Of a stretch of 26,381 nucleotides of DNA, positions 3,818 through 25,000 are shown piece after piece. The translations under genes were made by a program, and so were the position numbers. Location: IMG/VR virus record IMGVR_UViG_3300046834_000012, positions 1 to 26,381 of that record; one strand, given 5' to 3'. Within the stretch, counting starts at the first letter, position 1. Each line of letters begins with the position of its first letter. The stretch is from a virus. The notes beneath the pieces were generated by a model. The model had not been told where the DNA came from and made no database searches. It was given only the letters and a program-made list of their open reading frames with translations.

Positions 3818-6800
3818 TATCGATAATCACCTCTATTCTTTTTTGCCATCTCCGTAAGTAGTTGACGAATCTCTGTCTGTGATTGAGCCTGGTAGGGACC
3901 AGTACCCGTAATACCCGCTGATGTAAGCCAGTTAAGTAACTGTTCAGGATTATAAGGTTCGTTATCCCTGGTGAGTCCTGTGACTCTAGCTCCAATTCCA
4001 ACAGCGGGAATCTGTTGAGCAAGATAGCCAGGAGTTCCACCCTCCATACTTTCTAAGGGAATTCCAAGAGAAGACTGCCCTTGTAATAACTCTAGGGGAA
4101 TTCTTAATCCAGGAGTTAACGAACTCATCGCAGTTTTACCAGGAGAACCAATTTGAGCTATCTGATCAATAAAAGGATTAGTAGGATTAACGATAGTATA
4201 TCCAGGAGCTTCTCCCCGCCAGGTTTCATCTCTACCTAATCCTGAGCCTGGTTGAAGTACGGGACCAATTCCCTTTTCTTTAATCCAATCAGGGAACATT
4301 TGATCCATAGGGAACGGATCTCCTGGTCCTTCTGATTCAATTCCAGTAATAGATTGCATATTAGCCATAGCTTTAGGGAATGCCATTGTAATGTGCGGCC
4401 GCATAATTGCCCCCTCGACAACTAGCGGAGTCGCTTTACGCATCCAAGAGTAGAAGGGAATTAATCGTCGCATGACGTTTTGTTCGAACCCCGTGAGATC
4501 CATTCCGTCAGGGTGAGACTTCTTAACTCTACGCCCCGCTTGTTCGATTGCAGTCTTGAGAGGTGCATTTGATTTACTGAGGACATCAACAAAATGAGCG
4601 AGTCTAACCCAGTGGTCTCTAAGTTCTGATGTGCGTGTGGCGACGTCATGAAGTCTGCCTCCAAAGGGTTGAATCTTTCCACCAAAAGTTCCCATTGCTG
4701 GATTTTGATTACCGACTAAATCTTCAATATCTACACCACGAATAAATAAACCTTGAGATTCGGCAGCCTGATAAATCTGTTCAGAAGTAAGCTTATCTCC
4801 ACGCCGTGTAGTTACGACCACATTGCCTGGCCGGGCTCTAAGAGCAGAATCACGAAGCTTAGGATCCATAATATTAAAGACCGATTCGAGGTCCTTGTAT
4901 CGTGTGGGATAAGCATGTAAAACCCTAGTTGCGATAGCATAAGGCTTAGGAGATACAACTCCGTCAAGAGCAGCAAGATAAATGTCACCATTTAGATTCC
5001 TAATGTGGTGGCTAGGTGAGTAAATCGTAACACCTGTTTTCCACATTCTTTGAATCTTATCAAAGTATTCAAGTGCTTTATGCGGAGTTTTGAATACATC
5101 TCGATCCAATTGTCGTTGCAGATTGTTTAATTGATCTGCGATTTGCTGAGGGAAATACGTTCCCTTAAGTCTTTCTACGTTCTGAGCCTGATGCTGAAAT
5201 TCTGCACCCTTTACAGGCATTCCCCATCGAATGGCTGCATCGTCCCACATACTGTTTTTACGAGTGACCATCTGCATTGCACGAGTTAATTGATATAACG
5301 CCTCAGCAGGCTCTTTAACATCCCACTCTTTCCATGAGTGCATCCAATTTCCGTCAGTGTAATCGAAGGCTCTTCCAATGTCGTCACTACCTTTTTTCTC
5401 GACAAACTGAAGAACCTTCGGAAGTTCATCATTTAACTCCTTAAGAACAGTTCCACTACGTAAAACCACAGCTTCTGAATTAGAAGTGATTCCATGAGTA
5501 CCCATTAACTTTTCAACTAAGTACTTAAACTGATCTGCTAATTGCTGTTCTTGTGGTGAACTAGCTGCACGTTTTCCTTGTGAGACTGCAAATGCAGCTT
5601 GTCTCTGTGAAGGTTTTGTTGCCCTCACTAAGGGAGTCATAGTTTCAGCAAAAGCACCCGCCACATTCCTAGCGGTATCAATGTATTCTCTTGAGAAAGG
5701 TTTAAGATCCTTAGCTCCCCACCAAGTAGCAAACTTAGTCATGATACCTTCCACGACTTTAGTTTGATTTAATTGGCGTCCCAAAATTTTAGGATTGGCT
5801 CCGAGTGAATCGTACATCGCTTTCGAGATTTTATGCAGTGTCTCAGGATTAACAATGCCGGTACTAGACTGACGCACAAGATTACGTGCTTCTTGTTCAA
5901 TCCCTGTGTAAAGTTTATCGCGCACTGGACTGAAGAGGTCGTCAATGAAAGCTTTTGCTGTTTTGGCTTCTCTAGTTGAGGCTCCGGCTTTTTCGGCAAG
6001 TTTCATCAACTCTCTTGAAATCTGAGAACCGATCATCACAGTTTGACTAGGAGGTAATTCCTTTGCCACTTCTGCAATTTTAGCGCCGGCACTGATAACG
6101 GGATCAAGAACTTCACTAGCTACCTGTGGCGTAGTAAAAGACTTTAAATCTTCAACTTGCTGAGAAGGTCGAGCCTTCCTAAAATCATCTACTAATTTTG
6201 ATGAAAGAGATCGGGGACCACCAGATAGATTAGCAATATCACTAAGCCTGACAGAAAGTCCTTCAGCGTCCGTAAGGTGCCTTCCCGATTTGAGAACTTC
6301 CTCTTCTGCGATTCTAAGCATTTGGAGCACATGAAACTGTCTCCTGTCTTTACGAACCTTACTTGCAGCATGAAGGATACTGTTATATAGGTTAGTCTGT
6401 CCAACGTGATTGATATTTTTCAATCTATTTCTACCCAAGAACTTCTGTGCTGCCTTTTGAGCTGTTTCAATCCATCGAGGACCAATTGTTAATTCAGGGA
6501 ACGGAGGAGGAGTAACTCTAGCTTCACTCAGAATGTCAGCAGGCTTGACACCTGCTTGAATCTTTTCAGCTTCTTTTCTAAGCAAATTTTTAACAATAGG
6601 ACTCTTAGCAGACGTAATTCTTTCATTAATAACTTTAAGAGCTAACATCGGATCTGCTTTTTCTGGCAATTTACTAATTAAGTTGGGAAGCTCCGACCTC
6701 CCAGCCCGGCTACGGGTCAACGCCTCAGTCAGCCCCTCCAAGGGGTCCCGGATTGCCTGCTCAGGAGCTGCTGTGAGGGCCAATGGGGGCTGACCCGACC

Positions 6801-9895: not shown

Positions 9896-11476
9896 TTACG
9901 AAATCTTAGCAGAAACTAGCTGCTTAATTCCTACAACAGCTACAAATTGGAAAAGTTTAGTTGGTTGGCTAGGACTGCCGTCAGTCTGCATTCTAATCGA
10001 GAAGTTAGCTTTCCTGAATCTCATAGCTTTACCGATTTTAATTACTTTATTGGTACTGGCAATGTCATCGCCTACGGTTACTTCAGTATAAGGAACAGCA
10101 CCAATAATAGGAGTTCCCCATAGCCCTAAATCAGCCCATGTTTCAGTTGTCAGAGAATCCCAGGTAATAGAGCTGATAAGAGTAATAGGCGTAACAGACC
10201 CCATAAAGTCTTCACCTGTAATAACATCTGCACCCCACCAAAACAATCTCTTATATCTAATGGGATCTGCCATATCATAATCTTTAGTAGTTGCAATACA
10301 ATACATTTTATGAGGAGAACCTGTACCTTCTACAGAACCACTAGCTCTACCATCAATAATCTTAATTACTTTATAGCCGCCTGAGCTAACATCAAAAGAA
10401 TAACCTGTATAGTAACTGTCAAGACCAGAGCCAGCCAAATCGCGGGCGCGTACGAGAGGACCGAATATATGCCACTCAATAGTCGATGTATCATCAGTTT
10501 TCATCCACTCCCCCCACGTACGAGTGCGTAACTGAAAAGAGTAAGTTCTATTATAATAACGTACAATAAGACGTTCACCTAAGGTGCTTAAGTGCTGATT
10601 CTCATAACGCACTGTCGTATTTGTAGGAAGTTGATTATCAAATACTAAAGGAACCTTAAGATTAAGCAATGTAAAGTTGAAATTGTTAATTTCGTATACT
10701 TTATTACGATGCAAGGCGTAAACAGTATTCTCATACTGTACTACACCAAAACTCCCACCAGAACCAACAACGGGATTAATCTCGCGAAGAATAGCATCTA
10801 CAGGATCCAAATCGTAAGCTAAGACATGTGTACTTTCACCCTTGAAAAGAAGGATGTTGTCCTGGTAAATTACAACGTTATTAAGGGTATCTCCATCACC
10901 TGGCTGCACATCAATAAAACTAGTACCAGGCCAAGTTGTAAAATCAGCAGCTGCTGAGAAGGTTAAACGTGAAGCATTAACAGTAGCAGATTCTCCAGGA
11001 CAAAGATAAAGTCTATTTTTATGAACTGTACACTTTTCAGCTCGGGGCATTGCTGCTACCGCTACTGCACCACCACCAGGTGTCCAAGAAATCCCACCAT
11101 TAGCACTTGTAGGTGTGGCAGGCATCCAAACTGTATTATTGTACACTTCCATAGTTTTGCATTCACGAGCAAGTCCTCCAGGACTTAGTGCCGTCCACGA
11201 ACTACCTGCATTACTACTAACAAAAGTAGCACCAGCCCTGGTAGCAAATAAATAAAGAGTGCCGCTAAAGACCACAGAACCAAAGATAAGAAGACGTTCA
11301 TTCGAGGCTCCCTGAAAAGTAACCTGAATCGCTGGTCTGCTAACTAAAGCCCCATCAATATCAAGTTCAAAGTTAAGACAATCAGTAAGTTCGTTATCCC
11401 CAACAACAACAGGATCAGAACCAATATTCAGGCCCCCACTAAAAGGCCCAAGACGTAAAACTTCAGGTCCAGCCAT
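9896..11476 (-). CDS. Tail nozzle/hub-like protein, probable beta-propeller, 526 aa
   Basis: A 526-residue beta-rich protein. Its N terminus carries the motif GPFSGGLNIGSDPVVVGDNE followed by LTDCLNFELDIDGALVSRP. This GGLN...D-x-E-L-x-D-x-x-N-x-x-x-x-x-x-G-x-L-x-x-R pattern marks tail proteins that follow adaptors in many short- and long-tailed phages. Repeated strands with Trp and Tyr suggest a propeller (for example SSNAGSSWTAL, DDTSTIEWHIF). It directly follows the gp4-like adaptor gene, matching the order adaptor then nozzle in podoviruses. No peptidase or glycosidase motif is seen. Confidence 0.7.
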   Translation of the reverse strand: MAGPEVLRLGPFSGGLNIGSDPVVVGDNELTDCLNFELDIDGALVSRPAIQVTFQGASNERLLIFGSVVFSGTLYLFATRAGATFVSSNAGSSWTALSPGGLARECKTMEVYNNTVWMPATPTSANGGISWTPGGGAVAVAAMPRAEKCTVHKNRLYLCPGESATVNASRLTFSAAADFTTWPGTSFIDVQPGDGDTLNNVVIYQDNILLFKGESTHVLAYDLDPVDAILREINPVVGSGGSFGVVQYENTVYALHRNKVYEINNFNFTLLNLKVPLVFDNQLPTNTTVRYENQHLSTLGERLIVRYYNRTYSFQLRTRTWGEWMKTDDTSTIEWHIFGPLVRARDLAGSGLDSYYTGYSFDVSSGGYKVIKIIDGRASGSVEGTGSPHKMYCIATTKDYDMADPIRYKRLFWWGADVITGEDFMGSVTPITLISSITWDSLTTETWADLGLWGTPIIGAVPYTEVTVGDDIASTNKVIKIGKAMRFRKANFSIRMQTDGSPSQPTKLFQFVAVVGIKQLVSAKIS

Positions 11477-11484
11477 AACTCCCC

Positions 11485-12138
11485 CTATTGATCGTACCCT
11501 AATACTGTAATTGTGGGGTAAGTCTCAACAGGATCCTTAGTTTCTTTATTAACAAGCATAGATACATCTTGCTGAAAGTTGTTCATATACATCAGAGCAG
11601 GTTCATGATCCTCATCTAAAAGACTAGCCTGCCACATACAGTACTTAAAGATTGTATTATGATAAATCAAAGGTAAAGGAATAGCATCCGCAGGAGCCGC
11701 CACATCCGCCGGCTTTTGGTTATAGAGTACTTTTAGACCTGCTGTGGCTGACCTATCTGGAACAGGGAAAAGAATTGCCTTATTCTCATACATTGTGAAG
11801 TAGATAGGATTAGACTGATTGTAGGCTGAACCATCCCAGCCATCAATTGAATTATCAAACTCTTGCATATTCTTGTACTTCAAGGCGCTAAAACTTAACA
11901 TATCCGTATACTTATAACGCAGAGAACGAAGAATTAACAGGTCAGCAGGCATAACGTAAGACCCTTGTGCAGCTACCAAATTAACAAAATCTGTCTTCTG
12001 CAAAGCTGCATCGTTACGCTTGACAATCTCAATTTGACTGTCATTAATCCATCGAATAATATCGTCATCTGTTACCTGTACAGCAGCGTCGTCACCGAAA
12101 ACTCGGCGTACTCTCATAATTATATCTGAGACTATCAT
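11485..12138 (-). CDS. Head-to-tail adaptor protein (gp4-like)
   Basis: A 217-residue protein beginning MIVSDIIMRVRRVFGDDAAV, then DDDIIRWINDSQIEIVKRND. The DI-x-x-RVR-x-x-x-x-D-x11-D-x-x-I-x-R-WIN-x-x-Q-x-E-I signature matches phage adaptor proteins (P22 gp4-like, DUF6682-type) that join the portal to the tail. A later beta-rich region includes PIYFTMYENKAILFPVPDRS, also usual for the family. ATG overlaps the preceding stop (ATGA). It lies between the capsid genes and the nozzle gene, as expected. Confidence 0.78.
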   Translation of the reverse strand: MIVSDIIMRVRRVFGDDAAVQVTDDDIIRWINDSQIEIVKRNDAALQKTDFVNLVAAQGSYVMPADLLILRSLRYKYTDMLSFSALKYKNMQEFDNSIDGWDGSAYNQSNPIYFTMYENKAILFPVPDRSATAGLKVLYNQKPADVAAPADAIPLPLIYHNTIFKYCMWQASLLDEDHEPALMYMNNFQQDVSMLVNKETKDPVETYPTITVLGYDQ

Positions 12139-12575
12139 GTTATGTGTTTCTGTACGGGTCCTAAATCTCTAAACTCTTCATCTCTAACTCTACCCTCATG
12201 GTGCCAACGGCTCTTCGTATTTCTACCAATAAACATCGCAAAGTCTTTTTGAGCTTCAAGTTCATCTAGATGCTTTCTCATTTGCAAAGCTTTCTGGGCT
12301 GCATTTCTAGCATCTAGATTAGCTACTACATTATTTTTATCCTGATCCATGCTCCACACACGGGCAAGAATATCTTGAGGACTAGAGAGCGAGTCAGCAT
12401 AAAGTACTACTTTATTTCTTTGTGTATCTACTACTCTAAAAATTTTAGACTTATCAACTAAATTGCCCCATTCAAACATAGGAACCATTTCAAGAGCCAA
12501 ATTATGGTCATAATCTGATAGGACCTCAGCCAAATTCTGAAATTCAGCTGAGATCCATTCATCAATTTGATCCAT
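12135..12575 (-). CDS. Hypothetical virion-region protein, 146 aa
   Basis: A 146-residue protein with an acidic N terminus (MDQIDEWISAEFQNLAEVLS), a segment KIFRVVDTQRNKVVLYADSL and a charged helix ending in RWHHEGRVRDEEFRDLGPV. It sits directly before the adaptor, where head-completion or assembly-chaperone proteins are often found, but I do not recognise it. TAATG joins it to the upstream gene and ATGA to the adaptor. Confidence 0.6.
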   Translation of the reverse strand: MDQIDEWISAEFQNLAEVLSDYDHNLALEMVPMFEWGNLVDKSKIFRVVDTQRNKVVLYADSLSSPQDILARVWSMDQDKNNVVANLDARNAAQKALQMRKHLDELEAQKDFAMFIGRNTKSRWHHEGRVRDEEFRDLGPVQKHIT

Positions 12576-13075
12576 TACTTCTTGTTGTCGGACTTGCCAT
12601 CGTCATCGACGTCAGAATCTTCGATGCCAGAGTCATCATCATCTTCAACAGGCTTAACAAACTTATCATTGTTGGGATCATCGCCAGCGAAATCGTATTC
12701 GTGCGTAACTACGTGAGTAACTCGTGCAGACTCAGTAGTGGCCTGAGCAATTCCACGATTCTGTAAATCTAAAGCAATGTCAGGGTGAAGATGTGTGCCC
12801 GAAGGAACCTGCTTAACAATAGAGTCAGAATAAACCTGAATCTTAGGGTTTGCAATGTCTTCCTTAGTAACAGAAGCACTAGGGCCATAACGAGCCGCAG
12901 TCTCTTCCGGAGTTTCTGCTGCAAGCTGTGCAGGAGTTCGATTAGGAACAGTACTAACTACAGCCTCTGAGAGCATAGGATCCTTGTCATGCTTGTTCTC
13001 GTAATTTTCGTCGACATTTTTATTAGTCAGATCTCGCAAAGTAGGTGAAGCCTTCTTAGCGGGCGTATTTGTCAT
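12575..13075 (-). CDS. Acidic, disordered hypothetical protein, 166 aa
   Basis: A 166-residue protein with a basic N terminus, a Thr/Ala/Glu-rich middle and a C-terminal acidic tail of Asp and Ser (EDDDDSGIEDSDVDDDGKSD). A central part, YSDSIVKQVPSGTHLHPDIA, looks folded. It follows an intrinsic terminator and has its own AAAGG ribosome binding site 6 bases before the ATG. The acidic tail could bind basic partners during head assembly, but that is speculation. Confidence 0.6.
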   Translation of the reverse strand: MTNTPAKKASPTLRDLTNKNVDENYENKHDKDPMLSEAVVSTVPNRTPAQLAAETPEETAARYGPSASVTKEDIANPKIQVYSDSIVKQVPSGTHLHPDIALDLQNRGIAQATTESARVTHVVTHEYDFAGDDPNNDKFVKPVEDDDDSGIEDSDVDDDGKSDNKK

Positions 13076-13092
13076 CTTAAACCTTTCGTAGG

Positions 13093-13132
13093 ATAAAAAG
13101 AGGGGCCGTAGTTTCGGAGTAAAACTACGGCC
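13093..13132 (-). terminator. Intrinsic terminator after the capsid-accessory genes
   Basis: An 11-bp perfect stem: + strand GGCCGTAGTTT at 13104-13114 pairs with AAACTACGGCC at 13122-13132 across a 7-base loop. On the - strand it is followed by CCTCTTTTT, the T run of an intrinsic terminator. It lies between the 76-aa Cys-rich gene and the 166-aa gene and would reduce transcription after the capsid block. Confidence 0.88.
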
Positions 13133-13140
13133 ATCTCAAA

Positions 13141-13371
13141 TTACTTACAGGGTTCTTCGCAAGAACACCCGTCAACAGGACTCCATGAATAACATGTGGA
13201 CGTAACACCCAGCTTATGCTCACAAGGATAATTACAGGCATCTTTACCACATCTAGAACCACAGCGTTCAGGATCATGCCAGTACCTGACAGATTCCTTA
13301 CATGTATCGCATCTTAAAAAGGGATTAGCAAAACCAATCTGCGTGTGTACTCTCACGTGTGTAACTGTCAT
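13141..13371 (-). CDS. Cysteine-rich zinc-binding-type protein, 76 aa
   Basis: A 76-residue protein with ten cysteines: C21 and C24 (RCDTCKESVRYWHDPE), C37, C41, C46, C50 (NYPCEHKLG), C60, C69, C71 and C75. His32 and His52 are further possible ligands. This is enough for two zinc sites. It is coupled by ATGA to the preceding small capsid-region gene and is followed at once by a terminator. A Cys-rich protein in the capsid block might be a small virion or assembly protein, but the function is not known. Confidence 0.72.
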   Translation of the reverse strand: MTVTHVRVHTQIGFANPFLRCDTCKESVRYWHDPERCGSRCGKDACNYPCEHKLGVTSTCYSWSPVDGCSCEEPCK

Positions 13372-13703
13372 TGATTTAATTTCTGAGCATAAATTGCAGC
13401 TGAGGCAGTTTCAGCAGCACCTGTGGCGACTGCTAATTGAATAATAATATCATCTGTGTCAAGAAGAACATCAATAATAACCGGACCAAAGGCAACTGTC
13501 TGTGCAGCAGTTTGTGGAATCCTAGCCATAATCAAAGCAGCACCAACAATTAACTTACAACCATCTTCAAGTGTATGCCTAACGACACCTGAAATAGTGT
13601 AACGACCCTTACCAGGGTCCTGAATTTGACAAATAGTAGTATTTACAAGTGTGTTAATAGGTAAAACACCAGAGCCGACCCTATTAGTTTCTGCTCTTGC
13701 CAT
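13368..13703 (-). CDS. Probable capsid accessory or decoration protein, 111 aa
   Basis: A 111-residue beta-rich protein with few charges (VLPINTLVNTTICQIQDPGK, GRYTISGVVRHTLEDGCKLI). It begins a few bases after the major capsid stop. Small beta-rich proteins immediately after the capsid gene are usually decoration or stabilising proteins. I see no specific family motif, so this is a positional inference. Confidence 0.55.
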   Translation of the reverse strand: MARAETNRVGSGVLPINTLVNTTICQIQDPGKGRYTISGVVRHTLEDGCKLIVGAALIMARIPQTAAQTVAFGPVIIDVLLDTDDIIIQLAVATGAAETASAAIYAQKLNQ

Positions 13704-13707
13704 CTTA

Positions 13708-14946
13708 TTAGCTTTCGGTAATACCAGTAATCATACCGTGGGTGTTTCGACGGTGAGTACCAAGCTGCCAGTACTTATAAAGCCGAGCACGATAAGCATC
13801 ATATTCTCCAGAAGAATCCTGAAGACGCTGCCACATATTTCCATCACGGTTCATCCAAGACCAGTCACCAGCCTGATAAATCTTAAGTTCCTTCTCATTC
13901 ATCCAATAAAGACGACCCGCCTGGCAGTCATAATCAGAAATAAGAGGAATCTCACCATTATCAGTAGTAAATGCAAGTCCAGAAAAGCCACCAGTGAACT
14001 TAGTAGTATTTACATAACGTCGCTGTTGCTCAAGAAGGTTAGCGTAAGAACGCCGAACACCAAGAGAACAGAAGCCAACAGTAGTACTTCCACCCCGAGT
14101 ACGAATTGCATCAATCATATTAAGCATACGACCTTCGGAAATAGCTCCGGCAGTCGTATCCATGTTTCCAGTCCACGTACCATGCGTAATATTGTAAAGT
14201 GCACCTGTACCATTACCAAGAGCTGTGGCGGTAGCTGCTAATCCTGCAATAATGTGTTCAAAACCAACAGGCTCTTTCTGGTGAGAACCAGTACGAACTA
14301 AGAAATCACCAACAGCAACAGCAGTAACAGCAGATCCAAGAGTAACTGTTCCTGTTGAGGCTACAATATCAGTAATTTCAATATTAGCATTGTTCAAAAC
14401 AGGAGTAACTACAGTGCTAGTTGCATCATAAACATCTACAAACATACCAATTTCAAGATACTGTAAAGCACCAGCCGCAGTATTAACAAAAGTAGTCGCA
14501 GTACCCGAAGCCGCCACAGCAAGAACACCCTGAGATGTTCCATAGACCTGACGGTTAGTCTCTTTCTTAAGACCCTCTCGAATACCTTCCATTTCCTGGT
14601 CGAGGAGTCCTGCAAAAGCCTGAGTATCGGAGTCTGCTAACTCAAAAGACTGTCCAGAAAGCTGAATGGCTCCATAGTTATAAGAAAGCCTTACCTGTGC
14701 ATCCCGGTAATCCTGAGTCTTCGGGTTAGGAAGAGCTTCCATTTCATTTCGAGCACCAATACCATGGTTTCGCTTAACGCGAACTCCAAATCGAACATAC
14801 TTACCACCAACGGAGTCATTCTTCACTCCCTCAGAGGTACGCTCGATTCGAGAAATAGTAATAACTTCAGATTGAAGCTGATCCCGAACCTTAGGCTCGT
14901 AAATCTCCTTCAGAATATTAGCAGCGGTAGTAAGTGTGGTAGTAAT
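13708..14946 (-). CDS. Major capsid protein, apparent ATT start
   Basis: About 412 residues, the shell subunit. The N terminus in frame reads TTTLTTAANILKEIYEPKV then RDQLQSEVITISRIER, and continues GGKYVRFGVRVKRNHGIGAR. This is a typical start for this family (AANILKE-x-Y...L...I-x-R-I-E-x-x...GGK-x-V). No ATG, GTG or TTG lies between the in-frame stop at 14976 and the GTG at 14826, which would remove the first 40 residues including this conserved part. ATT at 14946 has GGAGG 9 bases upstream and gives an N terminus of expected length; GTC at 14952 is too close to the ribosome site. A beta-rich insertion (about residues 150-220) precedes FEHIIAGLAAT. The scaffold gene lies upstream. Confidence 0.85.
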   Translation of the reverse strand: MTTTLTTAANILKEIYEPKVRDQLQSEVITISRIERTSEGVKNDSVGGKYVRFGVRVKRNHGIGARNEMEALPNPKTQDYRDAQVRLSYNYGAIQLSGQSFELADSDTQAFAGLLDQEMEGIREGLKKETNRQVYGTSQGVLAVAASGTATTFVNTAAGALQYLEIGMFVDVYDATSTVVTPVLNNANIEITDIVASTGTVTLGSAVTAVAVGDFLVRTGSHQKEPVGFEHIIAGLAATATALGNGTGALYNITHGTWTGNMDTTAGAISEGRMLNMIDAIRTRGGSTTVGFCSLGVRRSYANLLEQQRRYVNTTKFTGGFSGLAFTTDNGEIPLISDYDCQAGRLYWMNEKELKIYQAGDWSWMNRDGNMWQRLQDSSGEYDAYRARLYKYWQLGTHRRNTHGMITGITES

Positions 14947-23178: not shown

Positions 23179-23399
23179 AGCAAGTTCCCGCCACACCTAG
23201 GCCAAGGCGTGTACTTGTAATCTAAAGTGAGAATTGAATCTCTAGCTCGCTGGTCTGAAGGTTGAAGTCGTCTGCTAACTTGGAATACAAATCCGATGTC
23301 ATCAAAGAAGACTGCTGTGTCTACTACTAGGATTAAGTCCTTTTTATTCTGCACTGGCCCTTGAACTGGCACTGTGGCGGCACTTGACCTTGGAGTCAT
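23169..23399 (-). CDS. Hypothetical protein, 76 aa
   Basis: A 76-residue protein beginning MTPRSSAATVPVQGPVQNKK, followed by the strand-rich DLILVVDTAVFFDDIGFVFQ and the basic VSRRLQPSDQRARDSILT. It directly follows the small terminase-like gene through a TAATG overlap. It may be a tail or packaging accessory protein but matches nothing I know. Confidence 0.55.
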   Translation of the reverse strand: MTPRSSAATVPVQGPVQNKKDLILVVDTAVFFDDIGFVFQVSRRLQPSDQRARDSILTLDYKYTPWPRCGGNLLWS

Positions 23400-24133
23400 T
23401 ATTGAACTCCCAGCATCTTCTTGGCCTGTTCAAGTTCTAAGTCATCTTCTACAACTTCACTTGTAATCTGAGGGTGAGCTACTACTTCTAGAGTTCTATT
23501 AGCTGCTGCTAATTTCAAGTCTTGAGCAATGGCCATAATAAGATCTGGGTCTTTAATGTGGTTCTGAATAATTTCTACGAACATCCGAAGTAGTTGTTCA
23601 CTTTGTGGTGCTTCAGTGTTATTAAGTGTACCTGTAGTTTCAAGATAGAACTTGACAGCTTGCCAATCTCCAGCATTAATCTTCTTAGTTAATTCACCAA
23701 GAGCTGTAGGCTTAATGTTCTTCAGGTTTTGGGTTGCCATGTTCTCAACTAAGTTTTGAAACTGTGGGTCGTTAAGCCAAGCATAATAAGTTGCTGGACT
23801 AATACCCATCTGATCTAACTTGACTGAGTTATCTCTCGTATCTGCAAAGTTGGACATCGTAATTGCCACTGCTACCTGTGTAGGAGTAAGTTCACTTTGT
23901 GAATGCTGGCGCCAGGGAATCCCCCGCTGTTCTAAAGCTTTAATAACGCAAGGTCTCTGTAAGTGGTAGTTAATTGCAGTGTGTGCAAGTTTCAAGTAGT
24001 TAGCAATCTCTTCAACTGTAGGTACGTGATGCCTTAAATGCCACTGTAGTTCGTAGTAACTAATAATTGCTTTTTCATTTTTAGTTGGTCTATTCTGAAT
24101 TGCGTGGTACTGCTGTCTACTAATTTGGGCCAC
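23399..24133 (-). CDS. terS: Probable terminase small subunit (helix-turn-helix DNA-binding protein)
   Basis: A 244-residue protein with two DNA-binding-like regions. The first, VPTVEEIANYLKLAHTAINY near residues 37-56, is a helix-turn-helix. The second, MGISPATYYAWLNDPQFQNL, is the recognition-helix pattern of phBC6A51-type small terminases, followed by LGELTKKINAGDWQAVKFYL and E, where these proteins have GD-x-x-A-x-K-x-x-L. It likely binds the packaging site and recruits TerL, about 2.6 kb downstream in the operon. GTG start 24133 has AGGAGGT 5 bases upstream. A transcriptional regulator of the late operon is an alternative. Confidence 0.68.
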   Translation of the reverse strand: MAQISRQQYHAIQNRPTKNEKAIISYYELQWHLRHHVPTVEEIANYLKLAHTAINYHLQRPCVIKALEQRGIPWRQHSQSELTPTQVAVAITMSNFADTRDNSVKLDQMGISPATYYAWLNDPQFQNLVENMATQNLKNIKPTALGELTKKINAGDWQAVKFYLETTGTLNNTEAPQSEQLLRMFVEIIQNHIKDPDLIMAIAQDLKLAAANRTLEVVAHPQITSEVVEDDLELEQAKKMLGVQ

Positions 24134-24147
24134 TGTTCACCTCCTAT

Positions 24148-24255
24148 TTAAGTACCTGCCCCACAGTGTGCAACTCTAGGAATGATGTAACGTCGAAGCA
24201 TAGCATTTGTCCCACAGTGAGAAATTCGGGGGATCATGTACTTCTTGAGTTTCAT
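24148..24255 (-). CDS. Tandem-motif small peptide gene (two YxIPRxxHCG units), 35 aa
   Basis: A 35-residue open frame containing two units: MKLKKYMIPRISHCGTNA and MLRRYIIPRVAHCGAGT. ATG 24255 has AGGGAG 8 bases upstream; the TAA at 24150 lies a few bases before the small terminase ribosome site. The two units and the neighbouring 19-aa gene share the consensus K/R-x-Y-[MI]-I-P-[KR]-[IV]-[SA]-H-C. Its single Cys and His per unit could bind metal or be modified. I do not know a family for it. Evidence is repetition with synonymous change, correct ribosome sites and position in the operon leader. Confidence 0.72.
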   Translation of the reverse strand: MKLKKYMIPRISHCGTNAMLRRYIIPRVAHCGAGT

Positions 24256-24269
24256 TAGATAGACTCCCT

Positions 24270-24329
24270 CTAGCTAGCAGCAGTAGAGCAATGAGAAATC
24301 TTTGGAATCATGTACCTCTTAAGCCTCAT
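24270..24329 (-). CDS. Small peptide gene (one YMIPKISHC unit), 19 aa
   Basis: A 19-residue peptide, MRLKRYMIPKISHCSTAAS. The ATG at 24329 (or an in-frame ATG one codon earlier) follows AGAGGAG by about 4 bases. It is the third copy of the motif found twice in the next gene. Compared with the first unit of that gene, Leu, Ile, Pro, His, Cys and Thr codons differ only in the third base, so the amino-acid sequence rather than the DNA is conserved. Function unknown. Confidence 0.7.
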   Translation of the reverse strand: MRLKRYMIPKISHCSTAAS

Positions 24330-24390
24330 CATTCTCCTCTGTCTCTAGGGCTACTAATGCCAAGTTCTTCTCTAAAAGCTCTTTTTCCAT
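24319..24390 (-). CDS. Possible acidic leader peptide, 23 aa
   Basis: A 23-residue frame, MEKELLEKNLALVALETEEN followed by DEA, highly acidic and helical. It overlaps the start of the 19-aa peptide gene by 11 bases, which would couple the two. A GATTGAG stretch about 8 bases upstream of the ATG is a weak ribosome site. It would be the first translated frame of the late transcript. With nothing but a short frame and the overlap, confidence is limited. Confidence 0.4.
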   Translation of the reverse strand: MEKELLEKNLALVALETEENDEA

Positions 24391-24710: not shown

Positions 24711-24980
24711 AAAATATTGAAGTAACTCATTTGGTAACCTTTATTTTTAGAAAATAAGGGATTCTTATTTGGGTTTTGGGACTCCTGAATTTAGGTGCCT
24801 TTTATAAGGTGGTTTATTGGTACCGCTCTCAAGTTCGCCTGGATTATTGGGACAACATGATAATGTAGTAATGTATGTACAATGAGATATTAGAATGTTG
24901 TAACGTTGAGACTTAGTAATATAATATCGATGGCGCATTGGTACGTTGTATTGTCTATACGTTCTTATATCCCTGTGTTG

Positions 24981-25000
24981 TATCATATGTCTGTTCCAAT
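24981..25000. repeat. Split direct repeat, copy 1
   Basis: TATCATATGT, five variable bases, then CCAAT. The same 10 + 5 pattern recurs at 25086-25105, 105 bases away. A looser CATATGT...CAAT match is found near 24388. It may be an iteron-like binding site. Confidence 0.45.

Follow-up and report, generated by a model that had tools for sequence, protein, structure and literature searches.

Micropeptide genes in the terS leader

The window, that is, the whole stretch of DNA analysed here, is an IMG/VR contig of 26,381 bp, whose minus strand carries the genes for the head and for packaging (TerS, TerL, a P22-like portal and the major capsid protein). Immediately 5' of terS, at 24148-24332 on the minus strand, lie two micro-ORFs that make up three related peptide units, present as placed in the initial annotation, and the genes flanking these units are phage head genes. 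Micro-ORF A (24270..24332, minus strand) encodes MMRLKRYMIPKISHCSTAAS and can start at the ATG at 24332 or at that at 24329, from which the product is MRLKRYMIPKISHCSTAAS. The location given earlier for this unit holds, while its start can be one Met earlier than proposed, and a 23-codon ORF, MEKELLEKNLALVALETEENDEA (24319..24390, minus strand), overlaps the start. The 23-codon ORF is the first one past the leader sequence AGTGAGGATTG, which is common to the relatives of this phage. Micro-ORF B (24148..24255, minus strand) encodes MKLKKYMIPRISHCGTNAMLRRYIIPRVAHCGAGT, composed of two fused units, MKLKKYMIPRISHCGTNA-MLRRYIIPRVAHCGAGT. Unit B1 (24202..24255, minus strand) is a derived member of the family described below, with Asn in place of Gly15, and unit A is likewise derived, without the Gly15 that is present in 82/84 copies. 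Unit B2 (24148..24201, minus strand) is a canonical member, with its own ATG but without a clear Shine-Dalgarno site, and with a stop at codon 17 in the family numbering. None of the window units contains a second Cys (HC only).

Both micro-genes have plausible ribosome sites, earlier noted as good ones: the Shine-Dalgarno-like AGAGGAG (24334..24340, minus strand) ahead of ORF A and AGGGAG (24264..24269, minus strand) ahead of ORF B. ORF B is directly followed by the ribosome site of TerS, AGGAGGT (24139-24145, minus strand), and the next gene downstream is that of the terminase small subunit (23399..24133, minus strand; phrog_24579, 2e-9), which shows 50-65% identity to its relatives.

The unit repeats are detectable in the DNA too, with 76% identity, and a family profile built solely from copies outside the window scores units A, B1 and B2 at 18.6, 27.4 and 30.4 bits, respectively. 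It had been proposed that the third-base differences between the copies reflect selection on the peptide, and a count of substitutions bears this out: pS/pN is 0.90/0.16 for A-B1 (Fisher p=5e-5), 0.82/0.32 for A-B2 (p=0.006) and 0.65/0.28 for B1-B2 (p=0.04), p-values that overstate independence, since the copies are related by descent. Third positions hold 27 of the 52 differences among the window units. The terS leader RNA of the window shows no unusual structure (z=+0.80), and consequently the conservation lies at the peptide level. In addition, an ORF of 73 aa at 24765-24986 (minus strand) contains RYNILISHC and RQYNVPMRH, which recall the unit. This ORF was considered as a fourth, degraded copy because of a 24-nt repeat, and was rejected after 69/2000 shuffles scored equally high in the profile test.

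A search with the capsid protein yielded 16 related contigs, and patterns for the TerS protein found no close relatives. Seven close relatives (L027-L033) extend as far as this locus, and each of them has an Acb2-type (anti-CBASS) ORF in the terS leader; that of L032 was confirmed as PF24729 (E=1.1e-16). No Acb2 motif was found in the window, where the micropeptides occupy the slot (24148-24390) instead. Acb2, the anti-CBASS sponge, shares with the micropeptide the genomic position ahead of terS and no similarity in sequence or size. G016, which is likewise related through its capsid protein, contains only one unit, the canonical MKRYMIPRIAHCGAGS, located close to tRNA genes. The Acb2 ORF in the slot of the relatives and the single unit elsewhere in G016 indicate that the micropeptide is an accessory gene in this phage lineage. 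The Acb2 gene in the leader of the relatives, the wide family and the bacterial pseudoknot described below all go beyond the initial annotation.

A family of about 16 residues in phages and bacteria

Copies were first collected with a degenerate DNA pattern for Y[MI]IP[KR][IV][AS]HC and then with profile searches. The matches to the pattern are isolated ORFs of 16 residues, from bacteria as well as from other phages, and nearly every match in one phage pattern scan shows the identical extended consensus. A start codon lies two codons ahead of the aromatic residue in the phage copies and in 4/7 bacterial matches, and the pattern did not require a start. Altogether, 84 distinct DNA copies were collected from phage contigs and bacteria, and the family consensus, about 16 residues long, is M[KPR]R[FY]x[IVL]PR[VIT][AS]HCxxG[CSHKA]. 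The pattern scans in sum gave about 25 other phage contigs with the micropeptide, from several unrelated lineages. Among the bacteria, the peptide occurs in 28/297 genomes of Desulfobacterota (profile search, E<=1e-3), 40/132 of Zixibacteria (profile search, E<=1e-5), 4/299 of Bacillota and 3/149 of the phylum holding Aminicenantes, and Bacteroidota give a useful negative, with 0/247 genomes at the same threshold; these counts cover the five groups named. The likely hosts of this phage group are actinobacteria. One IMG/VR match (L046) and three genome matches (L041, L043 and L044) are without start context or family residues and were set aside, since they look like chance. The three window units are shown to be members of a family of free-standing micropeptides, which is carried by many phages and occurs in at least four bacterial phyla.

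Across the 84 distinct DNA copies, the most variable position of every codon is the third, and only third positions vary in the codons of P7, H11 and C12. It should be noted that H11 and C12, which are invariant in the member alignment as well, were fixed by the collecting pattern; the synonymous freedom was not built into it. Shine-Dalgarno sites occur ahead of 61/81 copies as compared with 10-11/81 at control offsets, that is, about six times more commonly. In many phages, the micropeptide ORF starts at the stop of the preceding gene or no more than about 20 nt away from it. Based on the third-position variation and the excess of Shine-Dalgarno sites over control positions, it is strongly supported by the codon patterns that the family is under selection as a coding sequence, with a strength far beyond that of the three window copies.

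Beyond the core, several positions vary in a regular way. Cys12 is always present and a second Cys occurs at position 13 or 16, never at both (0/11 vs 57/73, p=7e-7, a value to be read with the same reservation about common descent), and several copies without Cys13 and Cys16 have His16. The mutual exclusion of C13 and C16, together with His16 in copies that have neither, is what a putative swap of ligands looks like. The second Cys or His is absent from the window, G016 and the high-GC phage copies. Position 15 is occupied by the conserved Gly in 82/84 copies, and a Gly at position 13 is found in 15/84. Codon 17 is a stop in 15/22 low-GC phage or window units and TTA, a rare Leu codon there, in 7/8 units of high-GC (66-70%) phages (L080, L089, L090, L091 with two units, L117 and L120). 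Fused tandem units also occur in the phage contig L091, where two units are arranged like those of window ORF B. The tails are between 4 and 20 residues long and free to vary among the copies.

Searches of Pfam, NCBIfam, PHROGs, PADLOC and PDB gave no match at E<=10, with a sensitivity that is limited for such short peptides. No DNA match or significant peptide match was obtained among isolate phages and plasmids, for which tblastn is weak at 12-16 residues, and no paper containing the motif strings was found among open-licence papers. The family is apparently undescribed, since the searches turned up no known family or system into which it would fall. It is a conserved coding gene, in phages and at least four bacterial phyla, far below the length reported by gene callers, and consequently has been left unannotated so far.

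T4 Stp is a free-standing phage small protein of 26 aa. Like such proteins, the micropeptide is tiny, has its own ribosome site, is squeezed between larger genes and is missed by annotation; unlike them, it is shorter, common to phages and several bacterial phyla, linked to a pseudoknot and without any library match. As a broader class, small free-standing proteins are already known, and those of phages and bacteria have been reviewed (PMC11323111).

The pseudoknot and the gene neighbourhoods

A 32-nt element, GTC-CY-GGGCA-N-GAC-NTTAAAC-TGCCC, overlaps the end of the ORF in nearly all bacterial copies and in a few phage copies (L047, L085, L087 and L088), and is not present in the window. It can form an H-type pseudoknot, in which stem 1 is composed of GTC/GAC and stem 2 of GGGCA/TGCCC. 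In the alignment of 54 sequences, 91.4% of the cells pair, and changes on both sides were seen in 7/9 pairs, with variants of the stems such as GAGC/GCTC, GGAC/GTCC and ATC/GAT. Double changes occur in 36 cells compared with 12.5 in shuffles (0/500 as high), and the covariation signal is abolished by sliding the partner strand. The distance from the pseudoknot to the Cys12 codon is identical in 53/54 copies. In Rfam, no covariance model matched the element at gathering level, and the matches below threshold were chance ones only. The typical bacterial arrangement is that of a separate small gene, with a ribosome site, the ORF, the pseudoknot over the ORF end and often a terminator.

At about half of the bacterial loci, the first gene downstream lies on the other strand, and no recurrent downstream gene was found among them. 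The former indicates that the locus yields the peptide or its RNA as its product, rather than acting as a switch on the gene that follows. Of 100 genes neighbouring the bacterial copies, counted without a matched background set, 13 belong to the ArsR family, of which the aligned ones carry a CCxxFC tail, while Metal_resist and hemerythrin account for 4 and 3, respectively. In Zixibacteria, the conserved gene order is an ArsR-like regulator with the CCxxFC tail, a small Cys-rich ORF (at most loci) and the micropeptide with its pseudoknot, as seen at L040, L098, L101, L104, L107-L110, L113, L114 and L116.

The phage neighbourhoods are diverse. Several phage copies have terminase, connector or tRNA genes beside them and no visible metal gene nearby, and the neighbourhood in the window contains no metal or redox genes. 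For example, the micropeptide is located between head genes in L037, L038 and L086, by tRNA genes in G016 and L089, and just ahead of a large ORF that resembles, by eye, the terminase large subunit in L079, L118 and L121. In three phage contigs (L078/L092, L082 and L083), a ferritin gene (PF00210, E 1e-11 to 1e-12, Pfam) is directly downstream, and in L082 and L083 a terminator-like hairpin lies between the two genes. Attenuation of the downstream gene by this hairpin was not accepted as generally valid, as the gene downstream of bacterial copies is often on the other strand. Among the individual contigs, L089 (high GC) has 25 tRNA genes at 10030-14858, with the micropeptide inside the array, between tRNA-Arg and tRNA-Tyr. 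In addition, a small Cys-containing putative membrane ORF, of the CPYC..HW type and DUF1360-like by eye, adjoins or overlaps the micropeptide in L077, L079, L118, L121 and L122/L123.

Possible roles of the micropeptide

Then, what could such a short peptide do? The reading that we favour, with less than even confidence, is that the peptide may be a trans-acting small metal- or thiol-binding factor, because of the invariant His-Cys, the exclusive C13/C16 and the metal-handling neighbours. In this reading, His11-Cys12 would bind a soft metal ion or make up a redox pair with the help of Cys13, Cys16 or His16, and the conserved R-[FY]-x-[IV]-P-R part would serve for docking to a partner in the cell. 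In bacteria, the peptide would be expressed from operons for metal and redox stress, and the pseudoknot would control its mRNA or its translation; in phages, it would be an auxiliary gene. In the phage studied here, where the peptide is multiplied and occupies the accessory slot that precedes terS, it would be co-expressed with the packaging genes. The early suggestion of small basic His/Cys peptides, perhaps metal-binding, fits the invariant HC, the C13/C16 pattern and the metal neighbours, and fits less well the window units, which are without the second Cys. Moreover, the invariant F/Y, P and R point to a specific partner, not a mere chelator, which counts against the metal reading. Like metallothionein-like Cys-rich proteins in ArsR operons, the micropeptide has His/Cys ligands, an ArsR partner (in Zixibacteria) and a second Cys of shifting position; unlike metallothioneins, it has only 2-3 ligands, plus a highly conserved basic, aromatic and proline-containing part. 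Concrete tests can start from the pseudoknot, from the second cysteine with its shifting position and from the codon-17 pattern. Should the metal reading, or the ribosome reading considered next, be true, the micropeptide would rank with the shortest conserved functional genes known, and would connect the biology of phages with the way in which anaerobes handle metals.

A metal-binding factor is not the only reading suggested by these features. The peptide could be, though we consider it rather unlikely, a nascent-chain pause peptide, whose 16 residues act in the ribosome tunnel while the ribosome dwells at codon 17. At about the same low probability, the dwell might be caused by the stop, the rare TTA or the pseudoknot about 5 nt downstream, and the paused ribosome, perhaps metal-sensitive via His-Cys, might protect or control the mRNA. 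The codon-17 pattern and the covarying pseudoknot, with its constant spacing to the Cys12 codon, hint at pausing. However, there is no consistent downstream gene to regulate, with about half of the bacterial copies facing an opposite-strand gene, which argues against ordinary attenuation, the tails vary freely, the peptide is fused in tandem in the window and L091, and window units A and B1 have no stop, TTA or pseudoknot at codon 17. Compared with arrest leader peptides such as TnaC and SecM (e.g. PMC8429421 and PMC10951299), the micropeptide is similar in being conserved, about 16-25 residues long and provided with a defined codon where decoding may slow, and differs in having no regulated downstream gene, tandem copies and no known arrest motif. 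An undescribed peptide-RNA element of phages and anaerobic bacteria, in which the stop, the rare TTA or the pseudoknot holds synthesis at codon 17 so that the His-Cys chain, still on the ribosome, acts as a sensor of metal or redox state, is still less probable. A host-takeover or counter-defence micropeptide that binds a conserved host protein, in the manner of other tiny phage proteins, and does in this phage the job of the replaced Acb2, is similarly improbable; the Acb2-type ORF of the relatives, without a counterpart in the window, and the recurrence of the family across many unrelated phages argue for it, whereas a common bacterial chromosomal gene with its own RNA element and metal-operon partners is unexpected for a phage weapon, and PADLOC offers no match.

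RRE-bound leaders have a conserved stretch of the Y/FxxPx[IV] type. Since the micropeptide has a short Cys-bearing C-terminus behind such a stretch, it might be a RiPP precursor, with an N-terminal recognition part, a short Cys core and an enzyme encoded elsewhere. We regard this as quite improbable, as no recurrent maturation gene, lasso B and C genes included, was found among the top 25 families of the 100 bacterial neighbour genes scanned, and phage copies could not depend on one. The Y-x-x-P-x-[IV] spacing does resemble the lasso-peptide leader (YxxPx[LI]xxxG, commonly YxxPxLxxxG), but the Gly of the micropeptide lies two residues later, at 15 and not at the lasso position 13, where it is found in the minority of copies counted above. 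Consequently, a lasso-peptide precursor was rejected, and the initial annotation was right to draw no conclusion from this likeness. The least probable reading by far is that of chance or RNA-level repeats taken for coding sequence. Very short ORFs do often arise by chance and the bacterial copies carry a conserved RNA structure, but the third-position pattern over the 84 copies, the ribosome sites, the empty result for Bacteroidota and the window leader without RNA structure stand against it, and it is already refuted by the codon statistics.

A minor observation concerns the high-GC phage contig L120, where the unit at 4223-4258 (minus strand) seemingly continues, without a change of frame, into a longer ORF of hydrophobic character (MTTLQGWVICIELGIIALAFLVGL...).
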